Of a stretch of DNA of 49,825 nucleotides, positions 24,244 through 44,718 are shown in pieces. The notes under the pieces are model-generated. The model was not told the origin of the DNA and did not search any database. It worked only from the letters and a program-made list of their open reading frames with translations. Position 1 is the first letter of the stretch. Each line of letters starts with the position of its first letter. The stretch comes from Fidelibacterota bacterium (lineage in GTDB: Bacteria; Pseudomonadota; Alphaproteobacteria; Rhodospirillales; Rhodospirillaceae), in contig CANJPG010000018.1 of NCBI GenBank assembly GCA_947476065.1, positions 1 through 49,825 on the forward strand, given 5' to 3'. Position numbers and translations under genes: made by a program.

Positions 24244-25041
24244 ATGTCCATGGCCCAGCATATCAGCGGGAAAACCGCGGCTTTAGCGTCGCTGCGACAG
24301 CGAATCCGCCAGTTGGAACGCCTGGGCGGCGCCAGGCCGGAGGCGGTCTCTCCGGCTTTAAAATTGCTGGAGCCCCTCGACAGCCTTTGGCCCGAGGGCG
24401 GCCTGCCCCTGGGATGTCTGCACGAGGCCAGAAGCGACGACAGCCCGGCAGGGGCTGCAGCCCTTACCGCCTTTGCCGCCGCCATTGGCGGGCGGCTGGG
24501 CATGGTCCTGTGGTGCGCCCGGCGGGGGGATGTTCATGGCGCACGCATCTATGCGCCCGGCCTTGCCCGCGTGGGCCTCATGCCTGCACGCCTCCTGGCC
24601 GTCACTGCGTCCTCGGACGCCGCCCTGCTGGGCGTCATGGAAGAGGGCCTGCGCCATAGCCTGCTCGCCTGTGTCGTCGGTGAAGTGGACAAGCTCGATC
24701 TGACCGCCAGCCGACGCCTGCATTTGGCGGCGGAGAAATCGGGCGTCACGGCTTTGGTTCTGCGCACCTCGTCCCGCCGCGCCGAGACCGAACCCATAGC
24801 CGCCGCCGGGCGCTGGCGGATCACGCCGTTTCCTTCCGCCCACCATGCAATTGCCGAAGCGGGTGCGCCCCGCTGGTCGCTTGAATTGCTCCAGTCGCGC
24901 AACGGTGCGACCGGAGCGTGGATTGTCGAGGCTCCCGATGCGCAGGGTCATCTCCGTCTTTCTTCCGCACTGGACCATGGACTTGCGGCAGCGCCGGCTG
25001 CGTCAGGACAATGGCCTGAGCAGCACCGCGCGGCCGGATAA
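24244..25041 (+). CDS. imuA: ImuA, SOS mutagenesis accessory protein
   Basis: 265 residues. A RecA/SulA-related fold: L-E-P-L-D-S-L-W-P-E-G-G-L-P-L-G near residues 42-57, then H-E-A-R. The Walker-like loop is degenerate, as usual for ImuA. It works with ImuB and DnaE2 in DNA-damage-induced translesion synthesis and is thought to link the complex to RecA or DNA. It is the first gene of a LexA-controlled operon. Its last 104 nt are shared, in another frame, with the start of imuB. Confidence 0.92.
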   Translation: MSMAQHISGKTAALASLRQRIRQLERLGGARPEAVSPALKLLEPLDSLWPEGGLPLGCLHEARSDDSPAGAAALTAFAAAIGGRLGMVLWCARRGDVHGARIYAPGLARVGLMPARLLAVTASSDAALLGVMEEGLRHSLLACVVGEVDKLDLTASRRLHLAAEKSGVTALVLRTSSRRAETEPIAAAGRWRITPFPSAHHAIAEAGAPRWSLELLQSRNGATGAWIVEAPDAQGHLRLSSALDHGLAAAPAASGQWPEQHRAAG

Positions 25042-26455: not shown

Positions 26456-29400
26456 TGACGCGCTATGCCGAGCTTCAGGTGACCAGCAATTATTCCTTCC
26501 TGCGCGGCGCCTCGTATCCCAAGGAAATGGTGGATAAGGCCATAGAACTTGGCCTTGCCGCCATCGCCATCACCGACCGCAACAGCGTTGCCGGCACCGT
26601 CAAAGCCTATGCCGCCGCGGACAAAAAGATCCCTCTGCTCATCGGCTGTCGGCTCGATCTAACCGACGGCCATAGCGTCCTGTGTTATCCGCAGCACCGC
26701 GCTGCCTATAGCCGCCTCACGCGCCTGCTAACTCTCGGCAAAAAACGCGCGAAAAAAGGCCAATGCCTTTTGACCTACGACGACGTCGCCGCCCATGGTG
26801 AAGGACAGATATTCATTGCCCTCGGCGATGAAGCCACGGAGAAATACGGCGCCTTTCTGCAAAAACTGCGCGGTGATTTCCGGAAAAGCACCTATCTCGC
26901 CCTCACGCGGCGTTTCCGTCCCAATGAAAACCAGCGCCTCGATACGCTCGCCGCAATGGCCCAGGACTTGCGTGTGTCAACCGTGGTGACCAACGACGTG
27001 CTTTATCACGTGCCCGAGCGGCGCATGCTGCAGGATGTGCTGACCTGCATCCGCCTGGGCAAAACCATCGATACGCTCGGCTATGAGCGCGAACGCTCGG
27101 CCGATCGGTTCCTGAAAACCCCGGCTGAAATGGTGCGGCTGTTTGCGTTGTATCCCGCAGCCGTCGAGCGCAGCTGCGAGATCGCCGAGCGCTGCCGCTT
27201 TTCCATGGACGAGCTGAAGTACCAGTATCCCGACGAACAGCTTATCCCGGGGCTTTCAGCCCAGCAGGCCTTGCGGCGGCTGACCTGGGAAGGGGCTTCG
27301 GACCGTTATCCCTCCGGCGTCTCCAAAAAAGTCGCCAAGAACGTCCGTGACGAACTCAAACTCATCGAGGAATTGAATTACGCCCCCTATTTTTTGACGG
27401 TTTGGCGCATCGTCAATTTTGCGCGCTCCAAGGAAATTCTCTGCCAAGGACGCGGCAGCGCCGCCAACTCTGCGGTGTGCTTCTGCTTAGGGATAACGGA
27501 AATGAACCCGGAAACATCCGAAGGTCTGTTCGCGCGCTTCATCAGCGCTGAACGGGGGGAGCCACCCGACATCGATGTCGACTTCGAGCATGAACGCCGC
27601 GAAGAAGTCATTCAGTGGATCTACCGGACCTACGGGCGCGATCATGCTGCACTTACAGCAACGGTCGTGCACTACCGCACACGGCGTTCTATTCGCGAAG
27701 TCGGCAAGGTCTTGGGCCTCACGGAGGACATCACAGCCATTATAGCAGGCACGGTATGGGGATGGTCTGAAGAAGGCATCGCCCACGACCGGGCGCGCAG
27801 CCTGGGCCTTGATCCCACCGACTGGCGCCTGCGGCTCACATTGAAGCTGGCCAAAGACATCACCGGCTTTCCCCGTCATCTCTCGCAGCATCCCGGCGGA
27901 TTTGTCATCAGCCGCGAGCGGCTGGACGACCTGGTGCCGGTGGAAAATGCCGCCATGGCGGACCGCACCGTTATCGCCTGGGACAAGGACGATATTGAAG
28001 TCATCCAGATGATGAAGGTCGATGTGCTCGGCCTCGGCATGTTGGGGTGCCTGCGCCGCGCGTTCGACCTACTGAAACAGCACAAGAACATGCCGCTATC
28101 CGTTGCCGCACTGCCGCCAGACGATCCGGTTGTCTACGACATGCTATGCAAGGCCGACAGCATTGGCGTGTTCCAGGTGGAAAGCCGCGCGCAGATGAAC
28201 ATGCTGCCGCGTTTAAAGCCGCGTAAAATTTATGACCTAGTGATTCAGGTGGCCATCGTCCGGCCTGGCCCAATTCAGGGCAATATGGTGCACCCTTACC
28301 TGAAGCGGCGCGCCGGCATTGAGAAGATTGTATATCCAATGCCCGAATTGGAACCGGTTCTGAACAAGACGCTAGGGATACCGCTGTTCCAGGAACATGC
28401 CATGAAGATCGCCATCGTCGGCGCGGGCTTCAGCCCCAGCGAAGCTGACCGGTTGCGCCGCGCCATGGCGACGTTCCGCAACGACGGCAAGGTGTCTGAA
28501 TTCCGCGACCCCTTCATCAGCGGCATGGTCAAGAACGGCTGCGCCCTGGAATTCGCCGAGCGCTGCTTCAGCCAGATCGAAGGCTTCGGCACCTATGGTT
28601 TCCCCGAAAGTCACGCCGCCTCTTTCGCCATTCTGGTCTACGCCTCATCCTGGGTGAAATGTCACCATCCGGATGTGTTTCTCTGCGCCATCCTCAACGC
28701 GCAGCCCTTAGGCTTCTACGCCCCGGCTCAATTGATCAGCGATGCCCGTGCCCACGATGTGGTGGTATTGCCGGCAGACATCAATGACAGTCACTGGGAT
28801 TGCACTCTGGAGCCGCAAACCAACGGCACGTTCGCCGTCCGCCTGGGCTTTCGTGTGATCAAGGGCATGACCGCCGAGGCTGCTAGCAAGCTGATCGCTG
28901 CGCGTCATGCGCCTTATGAAAACCTCGAAGATGTCTGGCAGCGCACGGAGATGCCGCTGCGCTACCTGGAGCTGCTGGCAGAAAGCGATACATGCGGCTC
29001 CGCGGGCATCGACCGGCGCCGGGCGCTATGGACGGTGCGGGCTCTGCGCAAACCGCTGCCGCTCTTTGCCGCTGCCGATAAACAACAGGCGCCATGGACG
29101 CCCGAACGCGCCGAGCCTGATGTGTGCCTCACCCCGTTGACCGACGGCGAGAACGTGCTGCAGGATTTTGCCATGACGTCTTTCTCCCTGCGCGCGCACC
29201 CTGTGCAGTTTCTGCGCCGCGACCTGACACAGGCCAAATGGCACGCCCTTGCTAGTTTGCAGAAGATGAGGAACGGCGACACCGCCCGTATCGCGGGGCT
29301 CGTGCTGGTGCGCCAGCGCCCCGGCTCGGCCAAGGGCATCGTCTTCATCACGCTGGAGGATGAAACCGGCCCGGGCAATCTCGTGGTCTGGCCGCAGTTT

Positions 29401-29652
29401 TTCCAGGACCACCGCGCGACCGTCATGGCCAGCCGCATGCTGGCCTGCGTCGGCAAAGTACAGAAAGAGGGCGATATCATCCACGTCGTCGTGCGCGAGC
29501 TGTACGATCTGACGCCATGGCTGCGTCACATTGGCGACATTGACTTAGAAGGCGGGGATTTGGAAAAGGATCCACCCATGCCGCCCGGCCGCGTGCTGGG
29601 CGGGGGACCCGCGGGTCCGCGCCTAAGGGTTAAAAGCCGCGACTTTCACTAG
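26455..29652 (+). CDS. dnaE2: DnaE2, error-prone C-family DNA polymerase
   Basis: 1065 residues from ATG 26455, overlapping the imuB stop by one base. The PHP domain is N-terminal (Y-A-E-L-Q-V-T-S-N-Y-S-F-L-R-G at about 4-18). The catalytic acids are in P-D-I-D-V-D-F (Asp374, Asp376) and M-M-K-V-D-V-L-G (Asp523), matching the DnaE active-site triad. An OB-fold near the C-terminus (about 940-1030) is present, while the long C-terminal tail of DnaE1 is absent. DnaE2 carries out error-prone bypass synthesis after DNA damage and needs ImuA and ImuB. The end (after about 1045) is a Pro/Gly-rich tail. Confidence 0.95.
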   Translation: MTRYAELQVTSNYSFLRGASYPKEMVDKAIELGLAAIAITDRNSVAGTVKAYAAADKKIPLLIGCRLDLTDGHSVLCYPQHRAAYSRLTRLLTLGKKRAKKGQCLLTYDDVAAHGEGQIFIALGDEATEKYGAFLQKLRGDFRKSTYLALTRRFRPNENQRLDTLAAMAQDLRVSTVVTNDVLYHVPERRMLQDVLTCIRLGKTIDTLGYERERSADRFLKTPAEMVRLFALYPAAVERSCEIAERCRFSMDELKYQYPDEQLIPGLSAQQALRRLTWEGASDRYPSGVSKKVAKNVRDELKLIEELNYAPYFLTVWRIVNFARSKEILCQGRGSAANSAVCFCLGITEMNPETSEGLFARFISAERGEPPDIDVDFEHERREEVIQWIYRTYGRDHAALTATVVHYRTRRSIREVGKVLGLTEDITAIIAGTVWGWSEEGIAHDRARSLGLDPTDWRLRLTLKLAKDITGFPRHLSQHPGGFVISRERLDDLVPVENAAMADRTVIAWDKDDIEVIQMMKVDVLGLGMLGCLRRAFDLLKQHKNMPLSVAALPPDDPVVYDMLCKADSIGVFQVESRAQMNMLPRLKPRKIYDLVIQVAIVRPGPIQGNMVHPYLKRRAGIEKIVYPMPELEPVLNKTLGIPLFQEHAMKIAIVGAGFSPSEADRLRRAMATFRNDGKVSEFRDPFISGMVKNGCALEFAERCFSQIEGFGTYGFPESHAASFAILVYASSWVKCHHPDVFLCAILNAQPLGFYAPAQLISDARAHDVVVLPADINDSHWDCTLEPQTNGTFAVRLGFRVIKGMTAEAASKLIAARHAPYENLEDVWQRTEMPLRYLELLAESDTCGSAGIDRRRALWTVRALRKPLPLFAAADKQQAPWTPERAEPDVCLTPLTDGENVLQDFAMTSFSLRAHPVQFLRRDLTQAKWHALASLQKMRNGDTARIAGLVLVRQRPGSAKGIVFITLEDETGPGNLVVWPQFFQDHRATVMASRMLACVGKVQKEGDIIHVVVRELYDLTPWLRHIGDIDLEGGDLEKDPPMPPGRVLGGGPAGPRLRVKSRDFH

Positions 29653-31459: not shown

Positions 31460-32518
31460 ATGACGATTTTGGTAACGGGCGGCGCCGGATTTATCGGCGC
31501 CAACTTTGTGATGGATTGGCTGGCGGCTGGCAATGAGCCCGTCGTCAACTACGACAAGCTGACCTATGCCGGCAACCTTGAGAACCTCGCAAGCCTCAAG
31601 GGCAATAACCGCCACATCTTCGTGCAGGGCGACATCGGCGATTACGATCAGGTCCTGCAGACCCTGGCGCAGCATAAACCCCGCGCCGTGCTGAACTTCG
31701 CTGCGGAATCCCATGTGGACCGTTCGATCCACAGCCCCGAGGACTTCATCCAGACCAACATCGTTGGCACCTACCGCCTGCTGGAAGCCGTGCGCGCCCA
31801 TTTCACGGGACTTTCCGCCCCCGACAAATCCGCCTTCCGTTTGCTGCATGTCTCAACCGATGAAGTCTACGGCTCGCTCGGCTTCGAAGACCCGGCCTTC
31901 ACCGAAGAGCACACCTATCAACCGAACAGCCCCTACTCCGCCTCCAAAGCCGCCTCGGACCATCTGGTGCGCGCCTACCACCACACCTATGGCTTGCCGG
32001 TGATGACTACCAATTGCTCCAACAATTACGGACCCTATCAATTTCCGGAAAAACTGATCCCGCTGATGATCCACAACGCTCTCATCGGCAAACCGCTGCC
32101 GATTTATGGCGATGGCCTCAACGTGCGCGATTGGCTGTATGTCGGCGACCACTGCAGCGCGATCTGCGTCGTGCTGGAGCGGGGCAAGGTCGATGAGACC
32201 TACAACATCGGCGGCTGGAACGAGATGTCTAACATCGCCGTCGTGCATACGCTCTGCGACATCCTCGATGCCGAGAAGCCGCGCGCCGATGGCGCCTCTT
32301 ACCGCACGCAGATCACTTTCGTCGCCGACCGGCCCGGACACGACCGCCGCTACGCCATCGACGCCACCAAGATCGACCGCGACCTCGGATGGAAGCCCGC
32401 CCAAACTTTCGAGACGGGGATCAGACGCACTGTGCGCTGGTATCTGGACAATCAGCCTTGGGTCAAAAATGTCACCAGCGGCGCCTACCGCGCGTGGGTC
32501 GCGGCGCAGTATCAATAG
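31460..32518 (+). CDS. rmlB: dTDP-glucose 4,6-dehydratase
   Basis: 352 residues. The NAD-binding G-G-A-G-F-I-G is at 7-13, the catalytic S-T-D-E (142-145) and the Tyr169/Lys173 pair (Y-S-A-S-K) are all in place, and the D-W-L-Y-V-G-D-H segment lies near 216-223. It converts dTDP-glucose to dTDP-4-keto-6-deoxyglucose, the second step of dTDP-L-rhamnose synthesis, in the cytoplasm. The other three steps follow in the order D, A, C. Confidence 0.97.
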
Positions 32519-32536
32519 AACCGCCAATACAATCGG

Positions 32537-33436
32537 ATGACGATGAAGATTCTTCTGCTCGGCGCGAACGGGCAAGTCGGTTGGGAGTTGCAGCGCTCAC
32601 TTGCCGCCTTGGGCGATGTGATGGCACACGGCCGCGCCACCGCCGATCTTGCCGATCTTGATGCCTTGCGCGACGTCGTGCGTGCGGCCAAGGCGGACGT
32701 CATCGCCAATGCCGCAGCCTATACCGCGGTCGACAAGGCGGAGTCCGAACCCGAGCTCGCCATGCTTATCAACGCGACCGCCGTCGGCCTTCTGGCGGAA
32801 GAGGCCAAACGCAGCAATGCCCTATTGATCCACTACTCAACGGACTACGTATTCGACGGCACAAAAACCGCGCCCTACGTCGAAACGGACGTCGCCAATC
32901 CTCTGAGCCTTTACGGCCGCAGCAAATACGCCGGCGAAGAAGCTGTACGTGCATCCGGTGCGCGCCATTTGATTTTTCGCACAAGCTGGGTCTACGCGCC
33001 GCGGGGCCACAATTTTCCGCGAACCATGCTCAAGTTTGCGCGTACGCGTGATGAACTGCGCGTGGTGGACGACCAGATCGGCGCCCCGACAAGTGCGGAA
33101 CTGATCGCCGATGTGACTGCCCAGGCGCTTCACCGGCTGTCGGATGACAAGCTTGGCACCTATCATGTGACCGCCACCGGCGCGGCCAGCTGGCACGCCT
33201 ATGCACAGCGACTGCTCCAGCTCGCGGTGGCAAGGGGTTACGTGTTGAAATCCACGCCCGATCGGGTCAAAGCCATTCCCACCGTCGACTACCCGACGCC
33301 CGCCAAACGCATTGCCAATTCCCGTCTGGCGACCGATAAGGTGCGGGCCGCCTTCGAACTTGCGCTACCGCGCTGGGACGCTGGCCTGGACCGGTTCCTC
33401 GACGAACTTCCGCAAGAAAGCCCGACCGCATCATGA
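32537..33436 (+). CDS. rmlD: dTDP-4-dehydrorhamnose reductase
   Basis: 299 residues. NAD(P)-binding G-A-N-G-Q-V-G (9-15), S-T-D-Y-V-F-D-G (101-108) and the catalytic Tyr126/Lys130 pair (Y-G-R-S-K) identify RmlD, which makes dTDP-L-rhamnose in the last step of the pathway. ATG 32543 is an alternative start two codons later. The stop overlaps the rmlA start by ATGA (33433-33436). Confidence 0.96.
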
Positions 33437-34326
33437 GCGACACGAAAAACCGCAAAGGCATCATTCTGGCGGGCGGCGCCGGCACCCGCCTGCATCCGGC
33501 GACGCTGGTCGTCTCTAAGCAGTTGTTGCCAGTCTTCGACAAACCGATGATCTATTACCCACTGTCGACGTTGATGTTGGCCGGCATTCGCGACATTCTC
33601 ATTATCTCCACGCCGCAGGACACACCGCGCTTCGAGCAGTTGCTGGGAACCGGCGCGCAATGGGGCCTCAATCTCACCTATGCAGTACAGCCATCGCCCG
33701 ACGGGCTCGCTCAGGCTTTCATCATCGGCGAGAAATTTTTGAATGGTGCGCCTTCGACGCTTGTCTTGGGCGATAACATTTTTTACGGGCACGATCTTGC
33801 GCGGCTGTTGGACTCCGCCGACAGCAAGACCACCGGCGCGACCGTTTTTGCCTATCACGTGCATGATCCAGAGCGTTACGGCGTCGTCGAATTCGACGAT
33901 AGTGGCAAGGCGATCAGCCTGGAAGAAAAACCGAAGCAGCCGAAGTCGAGCTACGCCGTGACCGGGCTGTACTTTTATGACGGCGGCGTTTCGGCCCGCG
34001 CCAAGTCGCTGAAGCCCTCGCCGCGCGGCGAGTTGGAGATCACCGACCTCAACCGGCTCTATCTCGATGCCGGCACCATGTCGGTCGAGATCATGGGACG
34101 CGGCTACGCCTGGCTCGACACCGGCACGCATGAGTCGATGCTCGAGGCCAGCCAGTTCATCGCCACGCTCGAACGCCGCCAGGGCATGAAAGTTTCGTGC
34201 CCGGAAGAAATCGCCTTCCGCCAGAAATGGATCGATGCGCCGGCCCTCGAGAAACTGGCCCAGCCTTTGGCTAAGAACGATTACGGTCGTTACCTCAAAA
34301 GCCTTTTGACCGAGCGCCGGTTCTGA
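33433..34326 (+). CDS. rmlA: Glucose-1-phosphate thymidylyltransferase
   Basis: 297 residues, the usual short RmlA length. The nucleotidyltransferase signature G-G-A-G-T-R-L-H-P is at 14-22, with Lys29 and D-K-P at 36-38; D-N-I-F-Y-G-H-D is near 113-120. It forms dTDP-glucose from dTTP and glucose-1-phosphate, the first step of the rhamnose pathway and the usual point of feedback inhibition by dTDP-rhamnose. Coupled to rmlD upstream and rmlC downstream by overlapping start and stop codons. Confidence 0.97.
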
Positions 34327-34871
34327 TGAAAGCCACGCGTCTCAAGATCCCGGACCTCGTCCTCCTGGAGCCGAAAGTCTTCGGCGACTCCCGCGGCTTC
34401 TTTTTTGAAAGCTATAACCAGCGTGTCTTTCGTGACGTCACCGGCCAGGAGCCGGTGTTTGTGCAGGACAATCACTCCCGCTCGGTAAAGGGCGTGCTGC
34501 GCGGCCTGCACTACCAGATCAAGCAGACCCAGGGCAAACTTGTGCGCGTGCTGGACGGCGAGGTATTCGATGTCGCCGTGGATATCCGCAAATCTTCGCC
34601 GACCTACGGCCAATGGGCGGGAGAAGTCCTGTCCGCCGAAAACAAAAAAGAATTGTGGATTCCCCCCGGCTTTGCGCACGGCTTCCTCGTGCTGTCCGGC
34701 TCCGCCGACTTCTTCTACAAGGCCACGGATTACTGGGCGCCTGAGTACGAGCGGTTTATCGCCTGGAACGATCCAGCTATCGGCATCCAATGGCCGTGGC
34801 AGGGCGAGCCGACGCTGTCGGGCAAAGATCAAAACGCGCTGCCGCTGTCCCAGGCCGAGACCTTCGATTGA
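34326..34871 (+). CDS. rmlC: dTDP-4-dehydrorhamnose 3,5-epimerase
   Basis: 181 residues, cupin fold. F-G-D-S-R-G-F-F-F-E-S-Y (19-30), the catalytic histidine His62 in R-G-L-H-Y-Q, and the G-F-A-H-G-F segment near 118-123 are diagnostic. It epimerises C3 and C5 of the keto sugar, the third step to dTDP-L-rhamnose. Start and stop each overlap the neighbour by one base (TGATG). Confidence 0.96.
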   Translation: MKATRLKIPDLVLLEPKVFGDSRGFFFESYNQRVFRDVTGQEPVFVQDNHSRSVKGVLRGLHYQIKQTQGKLVRVLDGEVFDVAVDIRKSSPTYGQWAGEVLSAENKKELWIPPGFAHGFLVLSGSADFFYKATDYWAPEYERFIAWNDPAIGIQWPWQGEPTLSGKDQNALPLSQAETFD

Positions 34872-35689
34872 TGGCCCCGGCCTCCGCATCGCCGCGCGAG
34901 ATCATCGCCAGTTTTTGGCGCAACCGCGCGCTGATCGCCATGCTGGCCAAACGCGACGCGCTGGGACGGTACCGGGGTTCTGTCCTCGGTCTTGCCTGGT
35001 CGTTCTTCAATCCGCTGCTGATGCTGCTGGTTTACACCTTCGTTTTTAGCGGCATTTTCAAAACCCGCTGGAGCGCCACCGAAAGCTCGACGTCGGAATA
35101 TGCCCTGGTGTTGTTCGCGGGCCTTCTGTTGTTCACGCTGTTCGCCGAGTGCCTGACGCGCGCGCCGTCGCTGGTGCTGGCCAATGTGAACTACGTCAAA
35201 AAGGTCGCCTTTCCGCTCGATATTCTGCCTTGGGTGGCCTTTGGCGCGGCCCTGTTCCATCTCGCGATCGGCCTTGTGGTCTGGCTGATCTTCTATCTCT
35301 CGCTGTTCGGAGCTCCCCCGGCGACTGCTTTGCTGCTGCCGGTTGTCGTCGCGCCCCTCGCGCTGACCATCCTCGGTTTCTCGTGGCTGCTCGCGGCCTT
35401 GGGCGTGTATTTGCGCGATGTTGGCCAGATCGTCGGCATTCTCACCTCGGCGCTCATTTTCCTCTCGCCGATCTTTTATCCGCTAACGGCTCTGCCTGAA
35501 AACATCCGCCCCCTGCTCTACCTCAATCCGCTGACGCTCGCGGTGGAGCAGGCCCGCGGCGTCTTGATTTGGGGAAACCTGCCAGACTGGCGCAGCTACG
35601 GCCTTTTCCTGATCAGCGGCCTCGTCATCGCCTGCCTGGGCTTTGCCTTCTTCCAGAAGACACGCAAAGGATTTGCCGATGTCCTCTGA
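34871..35689 (+). CDS. wzm: ABC polysaccharide exporter, permease
   Basis: 272 residues, six predicted membrane helices, ABC2-type exporter family. The N-terminal amphipathic stretch with K-R-D-A-L-G-R-Y-R-G-S-V-L-G (about 27-40) and the F-P-L-D-I-L-P segment near 114-120 are typical of Wzm/KpsM permeases. With Wzt it moves an undecaprenyl-linked, completed glycan across the inner membrane. TGATG overlap with rmlC and an 11-nt overlap with wzt. Confidence 0.93.
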   Translation: MAPASASPREIIASFWRNRALIAMLAKRDALGRYRGSVLGLAWSFFNPLLMLLVYTFVFSGIFKTRWSATESSTSEYALVLFAGLLLFTLFAECLTRAPSLVLANVNYVKKVAFPLDILPWVAFGAALFHLAIGLVVWLIFYLSLFGAPPATALLLPVVVAPLALTILGFSWLLAALGVYLRDVGQIVGILTSALIFLSPIFYPLTALPENIRPLLYLNPLTLAVEQARGVLIWGNLPDWRSYGLFLISGLVIACLGFAFFQKTRKGFADVL

Positions 35690-36887
35690 AGCGGTCATTG
35701 GCGACGCGGTGATTAGCGTCAGCAATCTGTCCAAATGCTACCAGATTTATGCGCGGCCGCATCACCGGCTGATGCAAAGCATTTTTCGCCGGCGAAAATA
35801 TTTCCGCGACTTCTGGGCCTTGCGCGACGTGTCGCTCGAGGTCAAACGCGGCGAAGTGCTGGGCATCATCGGTCGCAATGGCGCCGGCAAATCGACGCTA
35901 TTGCAGGCGATTTGCGGCACCGTCACGCCAAGCTCCGGCAGCATCACCGTAAACGGCCGGGTGGCAGCGCTGCTGGAACTGGGCGCGGGCTTCAATCCCG
36001 AGTTCAGCGGCCGCGAGAACGCCTATTTGAACGCGGCCCTATTGGGCATGACCCGGACCGAGATCGACGCCTGCTTCGACGACATCCTCGCCTTTGCTGA
36101 ACTCGAGGAATTCATCGACGAGCCCGTCAAAACCTATTCCAGCGGCATGTTCGTGCGCCTGGCCTTTGCCGTTGCCATCCACGTCAGCCCTGACATCTTG
36201 ATCATCGACGAGGCCTTGAGCGTCGGCGACATCGCCTTTCGCAACAAGTGCCTCGAACGGATTCAGGTGCTGGTGGCTAAAGGCGTGACCATTCTCTTTG
36301 TCACCCATGATATCAGCACGTTGCAGTTGCTGTGTTCTCGGGTGTTATGGCTCGACCACGGCCAGACGCGTGCGGTGGGCGACCCCATCCGCGTCTCCCA
36401 GGACTACTACGCCGACATGCTGGGCCATAAGGACCAGGCGCCGGCCCAGGCCTTTCCGGTGCAGCAGGAAACCGGCAAGGCCTTTTTTACCGACGTCCAG
36501 ATCAAGGGTGGCCGCGCTGGCGAATTCAAGCCCGGGGATCAATTGGACATCACGTTTTCCCTCGAGGCCAAACAGGACCTGGGTCCCGTTGTATTCAACG
36601 TCAGTATTTACCGCTCCGACGGCGACTGGGTGATCGGCCAGACCAGCCGCGACGTCGGCAAATACTGGAAAGCCGCCCAGGCGGGTGAAACATTGGCCGG
36701 CACCGTGCGTTTTGCACCCCTTAGCCTGGCACCCGGAGAGTACCGCGTCGCTGTCGGCGCCTGTTCCGCGGACTATACCTTATGCTATGCCCTTACCGAC
36801 CTGACGATGACCTTTGCCGTGCGTGCGCCTTATCCCACGTGGGGCAAGTTCATCCATCCCATCGAGTGGATCGGCAATGACGGCTAA
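35679..36887 (+). CDS. wzt: ABC polysaccharide exporter, ATPase with C-terminal glycan-binding-like domain
   Basis: 402 residues. Walker A G-R-N-G-A-G-K-S (65-72), signature Y-S-S-G-M (153-157), Walker B D-I-L-I-I-D-E (172-178) and H-loop His210 give a complete ATPase. After about residue 260 a beta-rich domain runs to the end, matching the Wzt C-terminal domain that in E. coli O8/O9a binds the capped non-reducing end of the O-polysaccharide and gates export. Its presence implies that this glycan carries a terminal modification. The gene overlaps both neighbours by 11 nt; the next encodes a double methyltransferase. Confidence 0.94.
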   Translation: MSSEAVIGDAVISVSNLSKCYQIYARPHHRLMQSIFRRRKYFRDFWALRDVSLEVKRGEVLGIIGRNGAGKSTLLQAICGTVTPSSGSITVNGRVAALLELGAGFNPEFSGRENAYLNAALLGMTRTEIDACFDDILAFAELEEFIDEPVKTYSSGMFVRLAFAVAIHVSPDILIIDEALSVGDIAFRNKCLERIQVLVAKGVTILFVTHDISTLQLLCSRVLWLDHGQTRAVGDPIRVSQDYYADMLGHKDQAPAQAFPVQQETGKAFFTDVQIKGGRAGEFKPGDQLDITFSLEAKQDLGPVVFNVSIYRSDGDWVIGQTSRDVGKYWKAAQAGETLAGTVRFAPLSLAPGEYRVAVGACSADYTLCYALTDLTMTFAVRAPYPTWGKFIHPIEWIGNDG

Positions 36888-38808
36888 CCCTCCTCCGGCT
36901 AACACCTGCCCCGTCTGCGGCGACGGCGCGCATCTGTCATTGCTGTGCCGGACTGACGGCGCGGATGTCTACGCCTGCGCCACATGCACTGCGGACCACG
37001 TTTTTCCCATGCCCGACGCGCGCGCGCTCAAGGCCTATTATGATCGGCGCGAATGGTTCGAAGGCGGCGAGAAAGGCGGCTACGAGAATTACGACGCGCA
37101 GACCGGCTGGTCGGTAGATTTAATGGACGCGATCCTGGCGCGCTGTGCGGGCAAAAGCGGTCTTTCAATACTGGATGTCGGCTGCGGCTACGGGACGCAT
37201 CTCGCCGCCGCCGCCAAATCGGGTTGGAAATGCTTTGGAGTGGAACCCTCCGCCCATGCGCGCGCTGTAGCCCAGGAGCGTCTGGGCGGCGAAGCTTATA
37301 TTGTCGAGAGCGCGTCCGATCTCATCCCGCACGAATTCGACGTTGTGCTAATGCTCGATGTCATCGAACACCTGCCGTCGCCGTACCCGACGTTCTACCA
37401 ATTGTTCTCCATCGGAGCGATCACGGCCAAGACACTGGTTGTCATCACCACGCCCAACGCCGGATCCGCCGCGGCCAAAAGCGATCCCGCCGCATGGCCG
37501 TACCGCCATCCGGCATCGCATCTCGTTCACTACACCGCCGGGGCTTTGGATCTGCTGCTGCGCCGTCTTCACTTTGAAGCTCCCGAGATCAAGGGCCTGA
37601 CCGAAGGCCCCGCCCCTAGCGACGATCTCGCCCATAGCGCCGGACTACTGGTCACCACGCAGGGCAGCGACTTCGCCGAATTCATGCGCGAGCGTTACGT
37701 CCCCGGCACATGGTCGAAGCTGGCTGAATACGAACATCTACCGCGCTACGCCCTGGCCAAGACCTTGGTGGATGGCAAGGCTGTGCTCGATTTCGGCTGC
37801 GGTACGGGTTATGGCGCCGCGCTGATGGCCGAAACCGCCGCCAGCGTCACCGGCCTTGATATCGACGCCGCCGCTTTGGCCTGGGCGCAGGAAAGCCACC
37901 GCAATCCGCATCTTGCGTTCCGGCGCCACGACGACCTGGGCGCCACGTTGCCTGACGCTTCCTTCGATCTCATCACCTGCTTTGAGATGATCGAGCACGT
38001 CGATTTCGCCACCCAGCAGGCCGCCGTCGCCAATATGGCGCGCCTGTTGCGCAACGACGGCCTCTTGCTCATCTCCACGCCCAATCCCGATGTCACTGCC
38101 CTTTACGGCGCCAATCCCTATCACCTGCGCGAGATGTCGGAAGCCGAGTTCCGCGATCTGCTCGGCCCGCATTTTCCGCATATCCGCATCCTGCGCCAAT
38201 TCGTGCGCGTGGGCATTGCCATCGACCAGGAGGACGCCGACGCGAGGCTAGTGCCCGGCGCAGTTGCCGACACTACCGCGCCCGAAACCAAGCCGCTGGC
38301 GTTCATCGCGCTGTGTTCGCGCCGCCCGGTGCCGGCCATTCCGAACCGCGTGCTCTTCGACCAAAACATCGACTTCATCGAACAGTTCATGTTGAAAGAG
38401 CAGGCGCTCAACAAAACCAAGCTCGAAGCCTACGAACGCGGCGAGCGGGCTCACAGCCTCGACGGGCAATTCAGGCGAGCGCTGTCGGAGCGCGATACTG
38501 CCCAAGCGGCGATCGTGAGTAAAACGCAGGAACTACACGAGAGTAAGCTCGAAATTATCGCGCGCACCAACGACCTGAATATCCTCGAACACCGCCGCCT
38601 CAATGAAAAAGGCGAGTACGAAGCCGCCTTGCAGGCTCTTGAGCACCGGCGCGCCAACGAACAGGCGGCAGCCGATGCGGCCTTTAGCGCGCTCCAGCGT
38701 ACACGCGAGGCCGAACATAACAGTCCCCGGTTCCTCGCAAGGCAGCTTTGGCGGGCGACGCGTGGACGCATCGGCGCCATCCTCGGCAGCCAGCCCAAGC
38801 GCGGATGA
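36877..38808 (+). CDS. Tandem methyltransferase with C-terminal coiled coil, candidate chain terminator
   Basis: 643 residues. An N-terminal zinc-ribbon-like pair C11-x2-C14 and C34-x2-C37 is followed by a first SAM methyltransferase domain (motif I L-D-V-G-C-G-Y-G at 99-106) and a second (motif I L-D-F-G-C-G-T-G at 304-311). From about 497 to 625 the sequence is charged and helical with Leu/Ala heptads, read as a coiled coil, ending in a basic amphipathic tail (about 623-640). The layout recalls WbdD, in which methyltransferase and kinase activities cap the O-chain and a coiled coil measures its length; here a second methyltransferase replaces the kinase. The order next to a Wzt with a glycan-binding domain fits a capping role. 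The domains are seen; the function is inferred. Alternatively each domain modifies a different sugar. Confidence 0.85.
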   Translation: MTANPPPANTCPVCGDGAHLSLLCRTDGADVYACATCTADHVFPMPDARALKAYYDRREWFEGGEKGGYENYDAQTGWSVDLMDAILARCAGKSGLSILDVGCGYGTHLAAAAKSGWKCFGVEPSAHARAVAQERLGGEAYIVESASDLIPHEFDVVLMLDVIEHLPSPYPTFYQLFSIGAITAKTLVVITTPNAGSAAAKSDPAAWPYRHPASHLVHYTAGALDLLLRRLHFEAPEIKGLTEGPAPSDDLAHSAGLLVTTQGSDFAEFMRERYVPGTWSKLAEYEHLPRYALAKTLVDGKAVLDFGCGTGYGAALMAETAASVTGLDIDAAALAWAQESHRNPHLAFRRHDDLGATLPDASFDLITCFEMIEHVDFATQQAAVANMARLLRNDGLLLISTPNPDVTALYGANPYHLREMSEAEFRDLLGPHFPHIRILRQFVRVGIAIDQEDADARLVPGAVADTTAPETKPLAFIALCSRRPVPAIPNRVLFDQNIDFIEQFMLKEQALNKTKLEAYERGERAHSLDGQFRRALSERDTAQAAIVSKTQELHESKLEIIARTNDLNILEHRRLNEKGEYEAALQALEHRRANEQAAADAAFSALQRTREAEHNSPRFLARQLWRATRGRIGAILGSQPKRG

Positions 38809-39779
38809 GCATGACTACCGCCCCAAGCGCGGATGCCGCGCACTCCTATTATTGTTCCCTCGTCATTCCGACCAAGGACGGCGGCCCGCTGTTCAAGCGC
38901 GTGATTGCCGGCCTCCAGGCCCAAGCCCGTTGGAAAGACGTGGAGTTCATCATCGTCGACTCCCAGTCGAGTGACGACACGGTCGAAACGGCGCGCGCCG
39001 CCGGCGCCAAAATCTTCACCATACCCGCCGCGCAATTCAATCACGGCGCCACGCGCGACTACGCCATCTCACAGGCCAGCAGTAATTTCGTCGTGCTGAT
39101 GGTCCAGGACGCGGTGCCCAGCGATGCAGACACCATTGAAAAGCTGGTTGAAACGCTGCGCGAAGACAACGTCGCGGGCGTCTATGCCCGCCAGATCCCG
39201 CAGCCCGATGCCGACGTGATCACCGCGCGCAACCTCAATATCCATCTGACCGGCCGCATGGAGCGCGACGTACATATCCTGAAGGACAAGGCCGCCTATG
39301 ACGCCATGTCGCCGATGGAAAAATATATCTTCAGCAATTTTGATAACGTGTGTTCCGCGCTGCGCAAGGATGTCTGGGCCCAGGAGCGCTTCGGCCGCAT
39401 CAATTTCGGCGAGGATATCGACTGGTCTGAGCGCGTGCTCAAGCGCGGCCACAAGATCGTCTATGAGCCGGCCGCCGCCGTCATCCATTCTCACGACCGG
39501 CCCATGAGTTATGAATATAAGCGGGCCTACGTCTGTCACCGTAAGCTGGTCCGGCAGTTCGGGTTGCGCGTCATCCCCACGGGGGCTGCCGCTTTGCACG
39601 GCTGGTACCACCTGACCAAAAGCGACATGAAATACATCGCCCGCACCGAACAGAACGTCGACCGCAAGATCGGTCTCCTGCTGCGAACCCCGTTCCTCAA
39701 CCTCCTGCGCATGTTCGGTCAGTTCCATGCCGTGCGCGACGAGGATCTCGGCGCGGTAAAATCCGTACGCGGCGTTTGA
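38805..39779 (+). CDS. Glycosyltransferase family 2, rhamnosyltransferase-like
   Basis: 324 residues from ATG 38805 (ATGA overlap with the previous gene). L-V-I-P-T-K-D-G-G (about 18-26), I-V-D-S-Q-S-S-D (50-57) and the F-N-H-G-A-T-R-D-Y-A motif (about 78-87) are typical of rhamnosyltransferases. A charged C-terminal part (H-S-H-D-R-P-M-S-Y) follows. It probably adds rhamnose from dTDP-L-rhamnose to the growing lipid-linked chain. The stop overlaps the GT4 start by TGATG. Confidence 0.9.
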   Translation: MSMTTAPSADAAHSYYCSLVIPTKDGGPLFKRVIAGLQAQARWKDVEFIIVDSQSSDDTVETARAAGAKIFTIPAAQFNHGATRDYAISQASSNFVVLMVQDAVPSDADTIEKLVETLREDNVAGVYARQIPQPDADVITARNLNIHLTGRMERDVHILKDKAAYDAMSPMEKYIFSNFDNVCSALRKDVWAQERFGRINFGEDIDWSERVLKRGHKIVYEPAAAVIHSHDRPMSYEYKRAYVCHRKLVRQFGLRVIPTGAAALHGWYHLTKSDMKYIARTEQNVDRKIGLLLRTPFLNLLRMFGQFHAVRDEDLGAVKSVRGV

Positions 39780-41560
39780 TGAAAATCCTGCTGACCGTTC
39801 ACCAGTTTTTCCCCAACTACTTTTCGGGGACGGAAGTGCTGACCTATAGCGTCGCCAAAGAGCTGTTGCGGCGCGGGCACGAGGTTGCAGTACTGACCGG
39901 CTTCCCCGCGCAGCGCCAGCTGGACGATGCCGAGCGTTTCGATGAATACGACCTCGAGGGCCTGCAGATCTTTCGCTTCCACCACGCCTTCGTGCCCATG
40001 GGCGAGCAAAATGTCCTCACGGAACTGGAATACGACAATCATCTGGCGGCCCAGTACTTCGCAGAAATCATTACCCGCTTCAAACCAGACGTAATCCACT
40101 TCTTCCATTTGAGCCGCCTGGGCGGCGCCTTGATCGACGTGACGGTCGGGGCCGGCATACCGGCGTATTACACGCCAACCGACTTCTGGTCAGTCTGCCC
40201 GACGTCACAATTGCTGTTGCATGGAGGCAAAGTCTGCCCGGGACCTTCGCGCTACGCCGGCAACTGCGTCAAGCACGTGGGCGAACTCACCCGCGGTAAA
40301 CGCGTGCGGCACGTGACACGTTTGGTGCCCGACGCCGTCGCCGATGTGCTCGTGAAACTCACCGTCGACAACATCCTGCCGCCCTACCCGCTCAGCCACG
40401 AAATCGCAGCTATGTCGCGGCGTAAAGACTTCCTGGTCTCCCGCGTCAACTGGCTGCACGGCGTCGTCTCGCCGACCAAGCTGATGACCGGCGTGCTGCT
40501 GCACAACGGCGTCGACGAGCGCCTGATCATCAGTTCCGGGTACGGCATCGACATTGCTGGTTATGGCATCGCGCCGCCGGAGGTGAAAAACGACGAGGAG
40601 CTGGTAGTCGGATTTATTGGCACCCTCGCGCCGCACAAGGGATGCCACGTCCTGATCGAGGCCTTCCGGCGTTTGCCACCAGGTGCCGCACGATTGAAGA
40701 TCTACGGCAATCCGGCCGATTTCCCCGACTACTATGCCAGCCTGCAAAAGCGCGCCGGCGACGCACCCAACATCGACTTCTGCGGCACCTTCCCAAACGG
40801 CGAAATCGGCGCCGTTCTGGCAGGTGTGCATGTGCTCGTGGTGCCGTCGCTGTGGTACGAGAACGCGCCGCTGGTGGTGTATTCGGCCCTGGCCGCGAAA
40901 CGCCCGGTCATTGTCTCCGACTTCCCTGGCCTGTCCGAGACCATCAAGCAGGACTGGAACGGCATGGTCTTCGCGCCCGGAGACGTGGCCGCACTACACG
41001 GCTGTCTCGCCCGTCTGGTGGGGGAAAGCGGATTGCTGGCCCAGCTCAGTTCCAATTGCCGACCGCCGAAGTCGAGCGTGGAATATGTCGACGAGCTTCT
41101 GGCCCTTTACGCCAAAGGCGCGCCGGCTGAACTGGCTGGGCGTGCCCACCATGGCTTGCAGAGCTTTAGCCCCCTGAAGCGCAGCGATAAACGCGGCTCG
41201 CTCTCGGGCTGGGCTGTCATCGGACTCGCCGGTCCGACGCGGGTCTGCTTGCGCAGTGGCGACCGAACCCTCGGCGAAACCACCCGCTTCCTGCCGCGGT
41301 TCGATGTGCGAGACGGACTGCGCAAGGGCGGCGCCAATACCAAAGTCAGCAACTTTGGTTTTGTGATAAAGTTGCCTGAAGGCATCGACCGCGCCCAGGC
41401 GGCGCTGCATGTCGAGGGCCCGGATGGCCGAACGCTCTCCGTCGGCCTCGGGGACCTGACCTGCGGCGCGTCCAAGCACCTGGGCGGCGGCGATTACATC
41501 GCAATCGACAGCGAGCGGCTTATATGGCAAGCCGGAGCGGCACACAGCGCAACCCCGTAA
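39779..41560 (+). CDS. Glycosyltransferase family 4 with a C-terminal beta domain
   Basis: 593 residues from ATG 39779. GT-B enzyme: N-domain to about 270 (F-F-P-N-Y-F-S-G-T-E near 9-18), donor domain with G-F-I-G-T-L-A-P-H-K-G near 276-286 and S-L-W-Y-E-N-A-P-L-V-V from about 357. An extra domain of about 120 residues (from about 470, G-S-L-S-G-W-A-V) is rich in strands and ends with D-L-T-C-G. It resembles the small beta domains fused to other surface-glycan glycosyltransferases and may bind glycan. A cysteine-bearing insert (C-P-G-P-S-R-Y-A-G-N-C) lies near 152-162. Acceptor and donor unknown. Confidence 0.88.
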   Translation: MKILLTVHQFFPNYFSGTEVLTYSVAKELLRRGHEVAVLTGFPAQRQLDDAERFDEYDLEGLQIFRFHHAFVPMGEQNVLTELEYDNHLAAQYFAEIITRFKPDVIHFFHLSRLGGALIDVTVGAGIPAYYTPTDFWSVCPTSQLLLHGGKVCPGPSRYAGNCVKHVGELTRGKRVRHVTRLVPDAVADVLVKLTVDNILPPYPLSHEIAAMSRRKDFLVSRVNWLHGVVSPTKLMTGVLLHNGVDERLIISSGYGIDIAGYGIAPPEVKNDEELVVGFIGTLAPHKGCHVLIEAFRRLPPGAARLKIYGNPADFPDYYASLQKRAGDAPNIDFCGTFPNGEIGAVLAGVHVLVVPSLWYENAPLVVYSALAAKRPVIVSDFPGLSETIKQDWNGMVFAPGDVAALHGCLARLVGESGLLAQLSSNCRPPKSSVEYVDELLALYAKGAPAELAGRAHHGLQSFSPLKRSDKRGSLSGWAVIGLAGPTRVCLRSGDRTLGETTRFLPRFDVRDGLRKGGANTKVSNFGFVIKLPEGIDRAQAALHVEGPDGRTLSVGLGDLTCGASKHLGGGDYIAIDSERLIWQAGAAHSATP

Positions 41561-41572: not shown

Positions 41573-42538
41573 ATGCCGGCAGTGACAGCACCACGATGCC
41601 TGGTCTTGGGAGGCAAGGGCTTTATCGGCTCTCACCTCATCGACGCCCTGCTGCGTGAGGGACTCGCGGTCAAAGCCTTCGACCGTGCCAACATTCCGCC
41701 CCTGAACGACGCCGCGACGGCTGCGCGCGTACAATGGATCGACGGCGACTTCACCAGCGATGCCAATGTGGGCGCGGCCCTCGTGGACAGCGACGTCGTG
41801 TATCATCTGGTCTCGACGACCCTGCCGCAGTCCTCCAACGCCGATCCGGTCTTCGACGTGGAAACCAACGTCGCCGGCACGATCCGGATGCTGAATCATG
41901 CCGTGCGCCATGGCGTGAAGAAGGTCGTGTTCATTTCGTCGGGCGGAACCGTCTACGGCATCCCGCGCCATGTTCCCATCGGTGAGGACCACCCCACCAA
42001 TCCCATAAGCTCGTACGGCATCACCAAGCTCGCCATCGAGAAGTACCTGCATCTGTACCGCACGTTGCACGGTCTTGATTACACGGTCCTGCGACTGTCC
42101 AATCCTTTCGGCGAACGCCAGCGCATTCAGGCGAGCCAAGGCGCGGTCGCGGTCTTCATGGGCAAGGTGTTGCGCGGCGAGACCATCGAGATATGGGGCG
42201 ATGGCTCGGTGGTGCGCGACTACATCTATATCGGCGATGTGGCCAAAGCCATGGTCGCCGCCGGAACCTATGGCGGCGACGAGCACACGTTCAATATCGG
42301 CTCTGGCGCCGGCCAAAGCCTCAACGACATCCTGGACGGCATAGAGCAGGTGACGGGCCGTAAGGCCAACCGCCGCTACACCGCCGCCCGCGCCTTTGAC
42401 GTGCCTGTCAGTGTGCTGGCCATCGACCGCGCCAAAGCCGCCTTGAACTGGTCGCCGGCGACGCCATTTCTGGAAGGCCTGCGCCGCCTGATGGCCTCCA
42501 TGCAGGCCGAGGCGCCGCAACCATCAGCCAAGCCATGA
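41573..42538 (+). CDS. NAD-dependent sugar epimerase/dehydratase (GalE-like)
   Basis: 321 residues, extended SDR. G-G-K-G-F-I-G-S at 13-20 binds NAD, the catalytic Tyr148/Lys152 pair is in Y-G-I-T-K, and D-G-S-V-V-R-D-Y-I-Y lies near 212-221. Most like UDP-glucose/UDP-N-acetylglucosamine 4-epimerases, so it may supply UDP-galactose or a related sugar to the glycan. The exact substrate cannot be told. Coupled to the membrane protein downstream by ATGA (42535-42538). Confidence 0.88.
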   Translation: MPAVTAPRCLVLGGKGFIGSHLIDALLREGLAVKAFDRANIPPLNDAATAARVQWIDGDFTSDANVGAALVDSDVVYHLVSTTLPQSSNADPVFDVETNVAGTIRMLNHAVRHGVKKVVFISSGGTVYGIPRHVPIGEDHPTNPISSYGITKLAIEKYLHLYRTLHGLDYTVLRLSNPFGERQRIQASQGAVAVFMGKVLRGETIEIWGDGSVVRDYIYIGDVAKAMVAAGTYGGDEHTFNIGSGAGQSLNDILDGIEQVTGRKANRRYTAARAFDVPVSVLAIDRAKAALNWSPATPFLEGLRRLMASMQAEAPQPSAKP

Positions 42539-44718
42539 CACGTCTCGGCAAGGTTGCGCCGCTGGCGGTGACTGCCCTGTGGCTGGGCATTATCGCGCTC
42601 GGCCTGGCTCTGGCAGCGCGCGTAGCAACAGAGCCGCCGGTCTGGGACGCGCTGTCCTACGTTCAAAAAGCCTTTGGCTTCTGGCGGGCGGTTGCCACGC
42701 GCGACTTAGTAAATCCCTTCGACCTGCCGATGACCCTGCGCCCGCCGGGCACGATCCTGATGTCTTATCCGTTCGGCTGGTCGGATGACTTTCGCTGGTT
42801 TTACTTCCGCTCCTGTTTCATTCCGGTCGTGCTGTTTGCCGGCGCGGTATATATCGCGGGCTGGTCCCGCCGCCTGACGCCCGCCGGCCATTGGGTGCTG
42901 GCCGCCCTGGCCTTGGCGCTCTGCGGCATGCCGATCCTCTATCAATTCCAGTCGAACGAAGACTTGCTGATCACCGTAAACTGGGGCCTGGTCGATGGGT
43001 TCCTTGGGGGTGTCGCGGCCGTGTCCGTAGCCGCCGCGCTCCGCAGCGTGACAGCGCGCTCCGTGGGCTGGGCCCTTGTCGCCGCAATTGCCGCCGGCTT
43101 CAGTCTTTGGATCAAGCCATCAGGCCTCGGCGTGATGGCCATCGTCGGCGTGGCCTGGCTGATGCTCGCTTTGTCGTCCGTGCAATGGAAACTCGCGGCC
43201 CTCAGGGACGACGCTGCTTTCCGGCGGTTCGTCGTATTCGGGCTGATCGGGGCGGTCCTTATGTACGCCGGTGCCGTAGGCTTGGCGTTTACGTCTGAAT
43301 ACTTCTCGGCCGATAACATCGCCTTCGGCCGACGCGCCCTCGAAGTGCTCGAGACCGAATATAATTCGCAGGTTTTACTTGGTTTGCTGGGCGCGCTTGT
43401 CCGGGCGAGCTTCGGCTACATGGTGCCGCTGCTTGTCGTCATCGGGCTCGTGGCCGCCGGCAGTGACCGTTCGGCCAGAGGGGCTGCGGGCGCAGCGCTC
43501 CTCAGTCTTGTCGCTGGCTCATGGTTCTGGCTGGGCCAGACCGACGCCACACAGATTAGATATTTCCTGCCCTTTGGCGTGGCCGCCTTCATTTTGCTCG
43601 TGCCCGCCTTGCTGCGATGGGCCGAAGCCGCACGACACCGCGCCACTTATATAGGCGCCGGCATCACCGTTCTTCCGACACTCGCGGTGACGATATTGCT
43701 GCTGAGCCCATCGCCGCCGCAGTCTTGGCAACGGGCTATGGGCATCAATCTCCACGCCAACAATTTCGCCGCGGAGAATCGCCTCGCCTCCGATCTGCTG
43801 ACGCGCCTGAAGGACGAAGGCCGCAAGACGGCTTTCGTGTATCTGCCGGGAACGCCCGCCAGCCTGCGCAACCTCGAGGCCGTCTGGGACTATGCCAAGG
43901 TCACGCGGCCCGATCTGCCCCAGGTCACCGCCATGATCCCCACCGATTGGCAGCACCTTTCCACCGTACGCGCCGAGGACCTGCTGCGCTGCGACTTTAT
44001 TGCGGTGGAGGCGCTGCGTGACATGGCCGCGCGCGACAAAATCCTCGCACAACACGATGTTCCCGACTTTTCGTCGCTCATCCAGCTGATGGCCGCCTGG
44101 ATGTCCACTCTGGACGAAGCCGACGGCGTGGCGGTCGCTGCGGTGACGCCACGCATGAAGCTGCTGCGCATCACGCATCGCGGGCAGTTTGAAGCCGCTT
44201 TGGCCCGCATCGAGCACACCTATACTCTTCCCGCGGTCTATCACGATGCCAATCCGCAGCGCTGGTGGTCGGCGGATGAATTGACCGCCCGCAGCATTCA
44301 GCCTGCTCCCTCGACCGACATCGTATTCCACGCGCCGGGCAAAACCGATGTCGTCCGGTCCGTGCAAGCCATTGAAGCGTCGCAGACCGATCAGGGCTTT
44401 CGCGCATCATTCTGGCTGGAATCCGGCCCCGGTGATACCGAGCCGGGCCCTTGGTATCTGTTCGTGCATCTGGTCGATGGCGCCGGCAATATCTTGGCCA
44501 ACGCGCAGACCGAGCTGCTGTCAGGCGACAGTCCGTCGGCGGATAGACCCTTGCGCTACTACACCATCACCTACCCGGCGCGGGCGCCGGGTACAGCGGC
44601 GCTGGCGTTCGGGATTTTCAAGATCAACACGCCTAATCTGGATTTTCTGGTGGCCGAGGGCGGCCAGCGCGACTGGCAGGACCAACGCGTTATTGTGCCG
44701 CTGCCCGCTTCTCAATAA
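42535..44718 (+). CDS. GT-C-like polytopic membrane glycosyltransferase
   Basis: 727 residues. About ten membrane helices in the first 400 residues, then a soluble C-terminal part of about 320 residues with a late beta-rich section (about 590-720). The first periplasmic loop holds Asp38 in P-P-V-W-D-A-L-S-Y, the place of the catalytic Asp in GT39/ArnT-like GT-C enzymes, which transfer sugars from polyprenyl phosphate on the periplasmic side. A polyprenyl-P-sugar synthase-like GT2 is encoded in the facing operon and could supply the donor. Last gene of the plus-strand operon; its 3' end overlaps the convergent methyltransferase by 29 bp. Confidence 0.7.
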   Translation: MTRLGKVAPLAVTALWLGIIALGLALAARVATEPPVWDALSYVQKAFGFWRAVATRDLVNPFDLPMTLRPPGTILMSYPFGWSDDFRWFYFRSCFIPVVLFAGAVYIAGWSRRLTPAGHWVLAALALALCGMPILYQFQSNEDLLITVNWGLVDGFLGGVAAVSVAAALRSVTARSVGWALVAAIAAGFSLWIKPSGLGVMAIVGVAWLMLALSSVQWKLAALRDDAAFRRFVVFGLIGAVLMYAGAVGLAFTSEYFSADNIAFGRRALEVLETEYNSQVLLGLLGALVRASFGYMVPLLVVIGLVAAGSDRSARGAAGAALLSLVAGSWFWLGQTDATQIRYFLPFGVAAFILLVPALLRWAEAARHRATYIGAGITVLPTLAVTILLLSPSPPQSWQRAMGINLHANNFAAENRLASDLLTRLKDEGRKTAFVYLPGTPASLRNLEAVWDYAKVTRPDLPQVTAMIPTDWQHLSTVRAEDLLRCDFIAVEALRDMAARDKILAQHDVPDFSSLIQLMAAWMSTLDEADGVAVAAVTPRMKLLRITHRGQFEAALARIEHTYTLPAVYHDANPQRWWSADELTARSIQPAPSTDIVFHAPGKTDVVRSVQAIEASQTDQGFRASFWLESGPGDTEPGPWYLFVHLVDGAGNILANAQTELLSGDSPSADRPLRYYTITYPARAPGTAALAFGIFKINTPNLDFLVAEGGQRDWQDQRVIVPLPASQ

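Follow-up and report, generated by a model that had tools for sequence, protein, structure and literature searches.

A Two-Headed Methyltransferase Stalk Protein, Probably a Chain Terminator for an ABC-Transporter-Exported Glycan

The subject of this analysis is a protein of 643 residues, here called the stalk protein, encoded in a stretch of 49,825 nucleotides (hereafter the window: contig CANJPG010000018.1 of assembly GCA_947476065.1, placed by GTDB in the Rhodospirillaceae). Its head consists of two methyltransferase domains, its stalk is a long predicted helix, and its gene lies directly behind that of Wzt, the ATPase of an ATP-binding cassette (ABC) transporter. In our assessment it is probably a chain terminator, whose methyltransferases would cap the end of a glycan and whose cap would be read by the C-terminal domain of the paired Wzt, because the protein keeps company with one specific subtype of that domain, even where the two genes lie on different contigs, and because its stalk has repeatedly been fused to glycosyltransferases. 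A sequence-only reading of the same DNA had proposed such a role; the pairing and the fusions make it the best supported of the readings considered, and its weakest points are the stalk as a coiled-coil ruler and the nature of the cap. The features on which the argument turns are as follows (SAM, S-adenosylmethionine; MT1 and MT2, the two methyltransferase domains).

35679..36887, + strand: Wzt, ABC-transporter ATPase with C-terminal domain (Pfam ABC_tran and Wzt_C; PDB relatives 8dku/7k2t, whole chain)
36465..36884, + strand: C-terminal glycan-binding-type domain of Wzt (PF14524; relative of the Aquifex aeolicus cap-binding domain 8dky)
36877..38808, + strand: double-methyltransferase stalk protein, 643 residues (open frame, Pfam, AlphaFold, protein family)
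36907..36987, + strand: zinc-ribbon-like CxxC..CxxC, residues 11-37 (sequence; incomplete in some members)
37117..37671, + strand: MT1, class-I SAM methyltransferase domain, about residues 81-265 (second Pfam stretch, motifs, AlphaFold model)
37672..38319, + strand: MT2, class-I SAM methyltransferase domain, about residues 266-481 (best Pfam stretch, motifs, model)
38374..38718, + strand: stalk, an uninterrupted predicted helix, residues 500-614 (AlphaFold; weak coiled-coil score)
38719..38805, + strand: basic C-terminal tail with helix 617-636 and an SPRFL motif (sequence, AlphaFold, family alignment)

A Bounded Family Paired with One Wzt Subtype

The stalk protein was found in 13 of 148 related genomes, the window's own included (E ≤ 1e-20), and a search of 317 genomes of the order returned the same 13 holders at E ≤ 1e-35. 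When one genome per species was scanned, 79 loci were obtained (best 80 of 103), 29 of them at E 2e-119 or better and the next at 2e-28, a drop that marks the family as sharply bounded. That gap, together with the open frames in 12 further genomes, also led to the rejection of chance or artefact as a source of the protein. Twelve of the 29 top loci (L029-L035, L037, L038, L040, L045 and L047) repeat loci already counted and were not recounted, and the 30 loci read are the window, its 12 relatives and 17 others. Their labels are Rhodospirillaceae, Hyphomicrobium, Beta- and Gammaproteobacteria, Desulfuromonadales, Nitrospira, Planctomycetota, Verrucomicrobia and Bacillota; taxon labels may be wrong for metagenome-assembled genomes (MAGs), to which the majority belong, but Variovorax sp. 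N23 and Herminiimonas sp. CN, in both of which the MT1 motifs are intact, carry no such mark.

The pairing of this putative terminator with its reader is the strongest evidence added here for a terminating role. A Wzt_C domain of any kind is present in 47 of the 148 related genomes, and the window's subtype of it in 14 (E ≤ 1e-5), among them all 13 holders of the stalk protein. The protein thus occurs in 13 of 14 genomes with the window's subtype versus 0 of 33 with another Wzt_C domain (Fisher 1e-10, an optimistic value, as related genomes are not independent). The division is visible within genera: of the 19 genomes in genus g1, nine have both, six have another Wzt_C domain and no stalk protein, and four have no Wzt_C domain, while in genus g3 one genome (G055) has both and two (G020, G042) have another Wzt subtype. 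Physical linkage is common, a Wzt with this domain subtype lying no more than one gene upstream in 10 of the 13 loci of related genomes and in 13 of the 17 other loci. In three genomes (G024, G043, G063) the paired Wzt is on a different contig from the stalk gene; the distances to the contig ends imply a separation of at least about 78 kb in G063, and in G043, where Wzt is near a contig end, only a few kilobases are excluded. At L041 a fragment of about 50 residues of the paired domain (L041:2004-2165) lies shortly upstream on the same contig with the rest of Wzt absent, a linked but broken arrangement, and at L055 the domain match is on another contig, but gene and match both lie near contig ends and may be linked.

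Of the six g1 genomes that have the other Wzt subtype, five were inspected, and each encodes a large protein near Wzm-Wzt (Wzm being the membrane subunit of the transporter). In the three on which Pfam was run (L130:3653-7078, L131:2682-5918, L134:3126-6347) it has an N-terminal Methyltransf_24 domain, weak matches to helical families in mid-protein and then RgpF and/or GT2; the other two (L132, L133) were judged by the likeness of their ends. In genus g1, terminator and reader appear to occur as a set, either the one or the other. A genus with two non-overlapping sets of terminator and Wzt domain comes close to a natural swap experiment.

Glycosyltransferases under the Stalk

The second line of evidence is found at the C-terminus, which is unfused in 15 of the 30 loci and fused to a glycosyltransferase in the other 15. 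Three loci (L023-L025) have a GT2 fusion, whose GT2 part matches the gene that follows the stalk gene in the window (E 8e-121, 5e-119 and 3e-118), and twelve have a GT4 fusion, recognised by Pfam in seven and by reading and length in L041, L042, L049, L055 and L057. Five changes of C-terminal state are needed on a tree built from 29 heads. Since the stalk has so repeatedly been joined to GT2 or GT4, the protein would seem to work with chain-extending enzymes, the evidence being of the fused-gene kind and genetic in nature.

Several of these loci hold additional methyltransferase genes. One lies between Wzt and the stalk gene at L046:804-1607, L048:6188-6955, L054:6142-6981 and L057:5075-5872 (51-69% mutual identity), and a second group adjoins the stalk gene at L023:3504-4334, L024:7165-7998 and L025:10223-11056. 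A third methylation step is possible in such loci. Two genomes also have an odd fusion, a pyruvate-phosphate-dikinase-like protein with an N-terminal YdaS/Cro-type DNA-binding domain (L024:9021-11897, L025:12237-15203).

The Head and Its Two Methyltransferase Domains

The stalk gene starts with ATG at 36877 and stops with TGA at 38806-38808, and the sequence-only reading had its coordinates and its open frame of 643 residues right. The two SAM methyltransferase domains that it had described were confirmed by Methyltransf_23, which matches the protein in two stretches (E 4.5e-41), the better of them at residues 293-416. It had further suggested a check that both domains keep their SAM residues, and both do: MT1 and MT2 each retain the glycine-rich loop and the acidic residue after strand 2, as is proper to class-I SAM methyltransferases. 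The two share 28% identity over 104 residues, and a recent tandem duplication was rejected. A hidden kinase was rejected as well, as Pfam and NCBIfam gave methyltransferase families only (in part from the best 25 of 45 families), and no counterpart was found of the kinase that stands between methyltransferase and coiled coil in O9a-type WbdD; in the AlphaFold model about 60 residues separate the last strand of MT2 (near 441) from the start of the helix at 500. Sequence and fold searches of the PDB with the stalk protein returned generic methyltransferases, and WbdD was absent among the matches listed (best 60 of 73 by sequence, best 50 in the fold searches).

Ahead of MT1 lies the zinc-ribbon-like start of the earlier description. 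Its Cys pairs, C11-C14 and C34-C37, are present in the window, but 12 of the 29 members that have the region lack the second pair in whole or in part, for which reason a zinc ribbon was rejected as an essential part of the protein.

The two domains differ in how faithfully they are kept. The motifs of MT2 are intact in all 30 members, while motif IV or the active-site loops of MT1 have been lost in 5 of 29 (L026, L027, L028, L053, L054; L055 was left out of the MT1 counts and of the tree, most of its MT1 being missing where the contig ends, and L054, a near-copy of L053, was omitted from one alignment). The five eroded members are scattered over the tree, their frames are still open and the paired Wzt domain is still there in every one. 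Because MT2 is universal and MT1 can erode while the Wzt domain is retained, we infer that the mark needed for export would be made by MT2, and that MT1 would add another, optional one. The same observations would suit a starker alternative, in which MT2 alone makes the cap read at export and MT1 has no part in the export signal, either adding a further decoration particular to some lineages or surviving as a remnant that serves structure or holds the substrate. We regard this as rather unlikely, as the MT1 motifs are kept in the window protein and 23 others, with an identity to the window that for intact MT1 is near or somewhat under that of MT2, which argues that MT1 is under constraint. Moreover, the MT2 motifs were the two search patterns of the genome scan, and their conservation in L036-L057 is partly circular, the 12 related genomes being unaffected.

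The Stalk and Its Tail

The AlphaFold model made with 29 aligned rows (mean predicted local distance difference test, pLDDT, 84.7; predicted template-modelling score, pTM, 0.76) contains two methyltransferase-type domains, a single helix of 115 residues (500-614) and a short helix (617-636), and a model with 13 rows has the same elements (mean pLDDT 74.8). The long helix, a well-supported prediction, follows the enzyme domains in this monomer model, at the place where known terminators have an extended coiled coil behind the enzyme, but its heptad score is weak. The sequence-only reading had put the coiled coil at about 130 residues; a helix of nearly that length is predicted, and only about 40 of its residues score as coil, P exceeding 0.5 at 573-612 alone. 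Coil scores were of the COILS type, with a background of 648 open reading frames from the window, L017-L028 and L058-L107 (the last not counted as family members). A stretch with P > 0.5 occurs in 19 of the 30 family members. On the model, then, the claim of a helix is firmer than that of a coiled coil, of which we are less sure. The tail has seven K/R and no D/E in its 29 residues and a moderate helical moment (0.35-0.46), in keeping with its earlier description as basic and amphipathic.

A number of observations weigh against the terminator reading, besides the optimism of the Fisher value. Of the 648 background frames, 20 reach the coil score of the stalk, as do 126 of 1000 shuffled versions of its sequence, and the 3.5-residue hydrophobic periodicity of the helix is not significant (shuffle p 0.14), so that heptad periodicity was rejected as proof of a coiled coil. 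The stretch from the head to the C-terminal motif ranges from 38 to 205 residues across the family. Because of this variation and of the weak heptads, a role as a length ruler, which the stalk may possibly have by analogy, is the weakest part of the reading. As to the pairing, one genome (G060, 88% complete, in 430 contigs) has the Wzt domain and no stalk protein, its best match being at 31% identity; conversely, L043 and L056 have the stalk protein and the paired Wzt domain was not matched in either genome, the Wzt of L056 being without a C-terminal domain. Finally, four plasmid-borne proteins of about 1150-1620 residues (L135-L138) start with an MT2-like domain, and no Wzm or Wzt is annotated within about 6 kb of them.

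These giant proteins, which are of glycosyltransferase type behind their MT2-like modules, bear on the proposal that the methyltransferases decorate residues within the chain, methylating repeat units without terminating anything, a proposal to which the commonness of methyltransferases in polysaccharide loci also lends itself. We consider it improbable in view of the subtype-specific pairing with Wzt, the stalk architecture, the fusions to glycosyltransferases and the precedents of WbdD, WsaE and O101/O162 (discussed below from excerpts of the papers on them). That MT1 and the Cys-rich start form a C-methyltransferase acting on sugars, of the TcaB9/KijD1 type, and make a branched sugar while MT2 caps, is very improbable. 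KijD1, TcaB9 and MtmC (E ~1e-13 to 3e-11) do come near the top of the Foldseek results, along with tandem phosphoethanolamine methyltransferases, but at 13-16% identity and a root-mean-square deviation of ~21 Å over the whole alignment, so that domains are mismatched; the second Cys pair is, as noted, not kept throughout the family, and none of the Pfam matches listed is specific to C-methyltransferases.

The Wzt Domain and the Likely Cap

The Wzt directly upstream of the stalk gene matches PF14524 at 53.1 bits (cut-off 30.4), which bears out the glycan-binding-like domain that the sequence-only reading had placed there, and this is the one match to the Wzt_C family found in the source genome. 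With the Wzm gene beside it, the locus has the transporter complement that accompanies coiled-coil polymerase-terminators. By sequence the domain belongs to the same fold family as that of A. aeolicus (E 8.4e-5), which is reported to bind 3-O-methyl-mannose and not mannose (PMC9445017). In a 25-bit pairwise alignment, the A. aeolicus contact residues N313, H350, L300, T346, A348 and W362 (PMC9445017) stand opposite T, C, S, A, G and L in the window. Because none of the six contact side chains is kept, the alignment suggests that the window's Wzt domain reads another cap than that of A. aeolicus. Seventeen other columns, including R312, D314, G315, W388 and W397, do not vary among 27 related Wzt domains (that of G060 included; L041, L043, L055 and L056 left out), and 26 of the 27 also retain W317 and W330.

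Likeness to Known Terminators

Among the known coiled-coil polymerase-terminators are WbdD, WbbB and ORF6 of Klebsiella pneumoniae O7, and the stalk protein would be an uncharacterised two-headed version of the same capping device. By analogy it would work as these and WsaE do; it is no O9a-type WbdD, as the searches found no kinase in it. In what follows, each cited paper is represented by an excerpt. In the terminators of K. pneumoniae O antigens, the enzyme that ends the chain is carried on the far end of a coiled coil, and the polymerase modules are either fused or separate (PMC11231755), a modular spread that the C-termini of the stalk-protein family repeat. O7 ORF6, a methyltransferase-kinase with a coiled coil and two GT2 modules, and with orthologues both with and without glycosyltransferases, is like the stalk protein in its distal methylating head, long helix and optional C-terminal glycosyltransferases (PMC11231755); unlike it, its second head domain is a kinase and its cap a methyl-phosphate, where the window has a second methyltransferase. 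WbdD of Escherichia coli O9a and O8 resembles it in layout, with a methyltransferase head, a C-terminal coiled-coil region, a partner polymerase and a cap recognised by Wzt, whereas the O9a protein has a kinase and the O8 homologue is a methyltransferase only (PMC3482155). The earlier proposal that a second methyltransferase replaces the kinase therefore holds as to position, and is qualified by the O8 homologue, which does without a kinase itself.

The single-methyltransferase cappers, WsaE and the O101/O162 methyltransferase, would be the nearest functional relatives. WsaE of Geobacillus stearothermophilus, encoded in an overlapping wzm-wzt-wsaE arrangement, combines an N-terminal methyltransferase with rhamnosyltransferases and makes a 2-O-methyl-rhamnose cap; it has one methyltransferase domain, and the excerpt mentions no stalk (PMC2943079). 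The methyltransferase of E. coli O101/O162 has a C-terminal coiled coil and is required for the terminal O-methyl group, and it too has a single methyltransferase domain (PMC13168486). Among the papers listed in searches of the open-licence literature, none on a terminator with two methyltransferases in one protein was seen, which is weak evidence of absence. The different capping chemistry that the sequence-only reading proposed is plausible.

Proposed Mechanism

As we picture it, the stalk protein would be a chain-terminating scaffold, and possibly a length ruler, for a glycan exported by the ABC transporter. The basic C-terminal helix and the stalk would keep the protein near the membrane, beside the glycosyltransferases by which the lipid-linked chain is lengthened, the extending enzyme being a separate GT2 in the window and fused in relatives. 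A chain reaching the distal head would have its growing end methylated by MT2, and also by MT1 where that is intact, as in the window; the methylated end would not be extended further, and the C-terminal domain of the paired Wzt would recognise it and admit the chain to export.

It is conceivable, if somewhat doubtful, that two-headed terminators across the phyla write a doubly methylated end, with the export mark from MT2 and an optional methyl from MT1, and that head and reader are exchanged as a pair, independently of the polymerase, whose glycosyltransferase modules swap under the same stalk. Were this so, what is exported would be decided by an interchangeable code at the chain end rather than by the polymer, and a double-methyl cap would join the known methyl, methyl-phosphate and Kdo (3-deoxy-D-manno-oct-2-ulosonic acid) caps. 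The family would offer a natural series for testing cap recognition by Wzt and the action of a ruler: some members have both heads and others an eroded MT1, the polymerase may be joined to the stalk or separate from it, stalk length varies widely, and one genus also has a single-methyltransferase alternative.

The Operon and Its Surroundings

The stalk gene belongs to a tightly packed run of genes in one direction, namely a GT2, four rml-like genes, wzm, wzt, the stalk gene, a second GT2, a GT4, an epimerase and a hydrophobic protein with about nine spans. It overlaps the end of wzt by 11 nucleotides, and its stop overlaps the start of the following GT2 gene as ATGA (4 nucleotides). The remaining annotated members of the run are as follows.

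31460..34871, + strand: four genes resembling rmlB, rmlD, rmlA and rmlC, for the supply of deoxythymidine diphosphate (dTDP)-rhamnose (Pfam for the first two)
34871..35689, + strand: Wzm, ABC-transporter membrane subunit (PF01061, E 3.3e-28; ATG read from the sequence)
38805..39779, + strand: GT2 glycosyltransferase (Pfam; the one found fused to the stalk protein in L023-L025)
39779..41560, + strand: GT4 glycosyltransferase (Pfam)

The names rmlA and rmlC are our presumption from reading the sequence. The exported glycan probably contains rhamnose.

The hydrophobic protein at the end of the run (42535-44718, 727 residues), which has related frames in several other loci of the stalk protein, had no match in Pfam or NCBIfam; from its topology we would guess that it resembles a membrane glycosyltransferase of the GT-C-like kind. 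Just past the operon, on the opposite strand, a frame of 492 residues (45442-46917) fuses a methyltransferase to a GT2. Far upstream, at 24845-29652, a gene of the impB/mucB/samB family adjoins one of the DNA polymerase III alpha type, a pair that we take to resemble an imuB-dnaE2 mutagenesis cassette.

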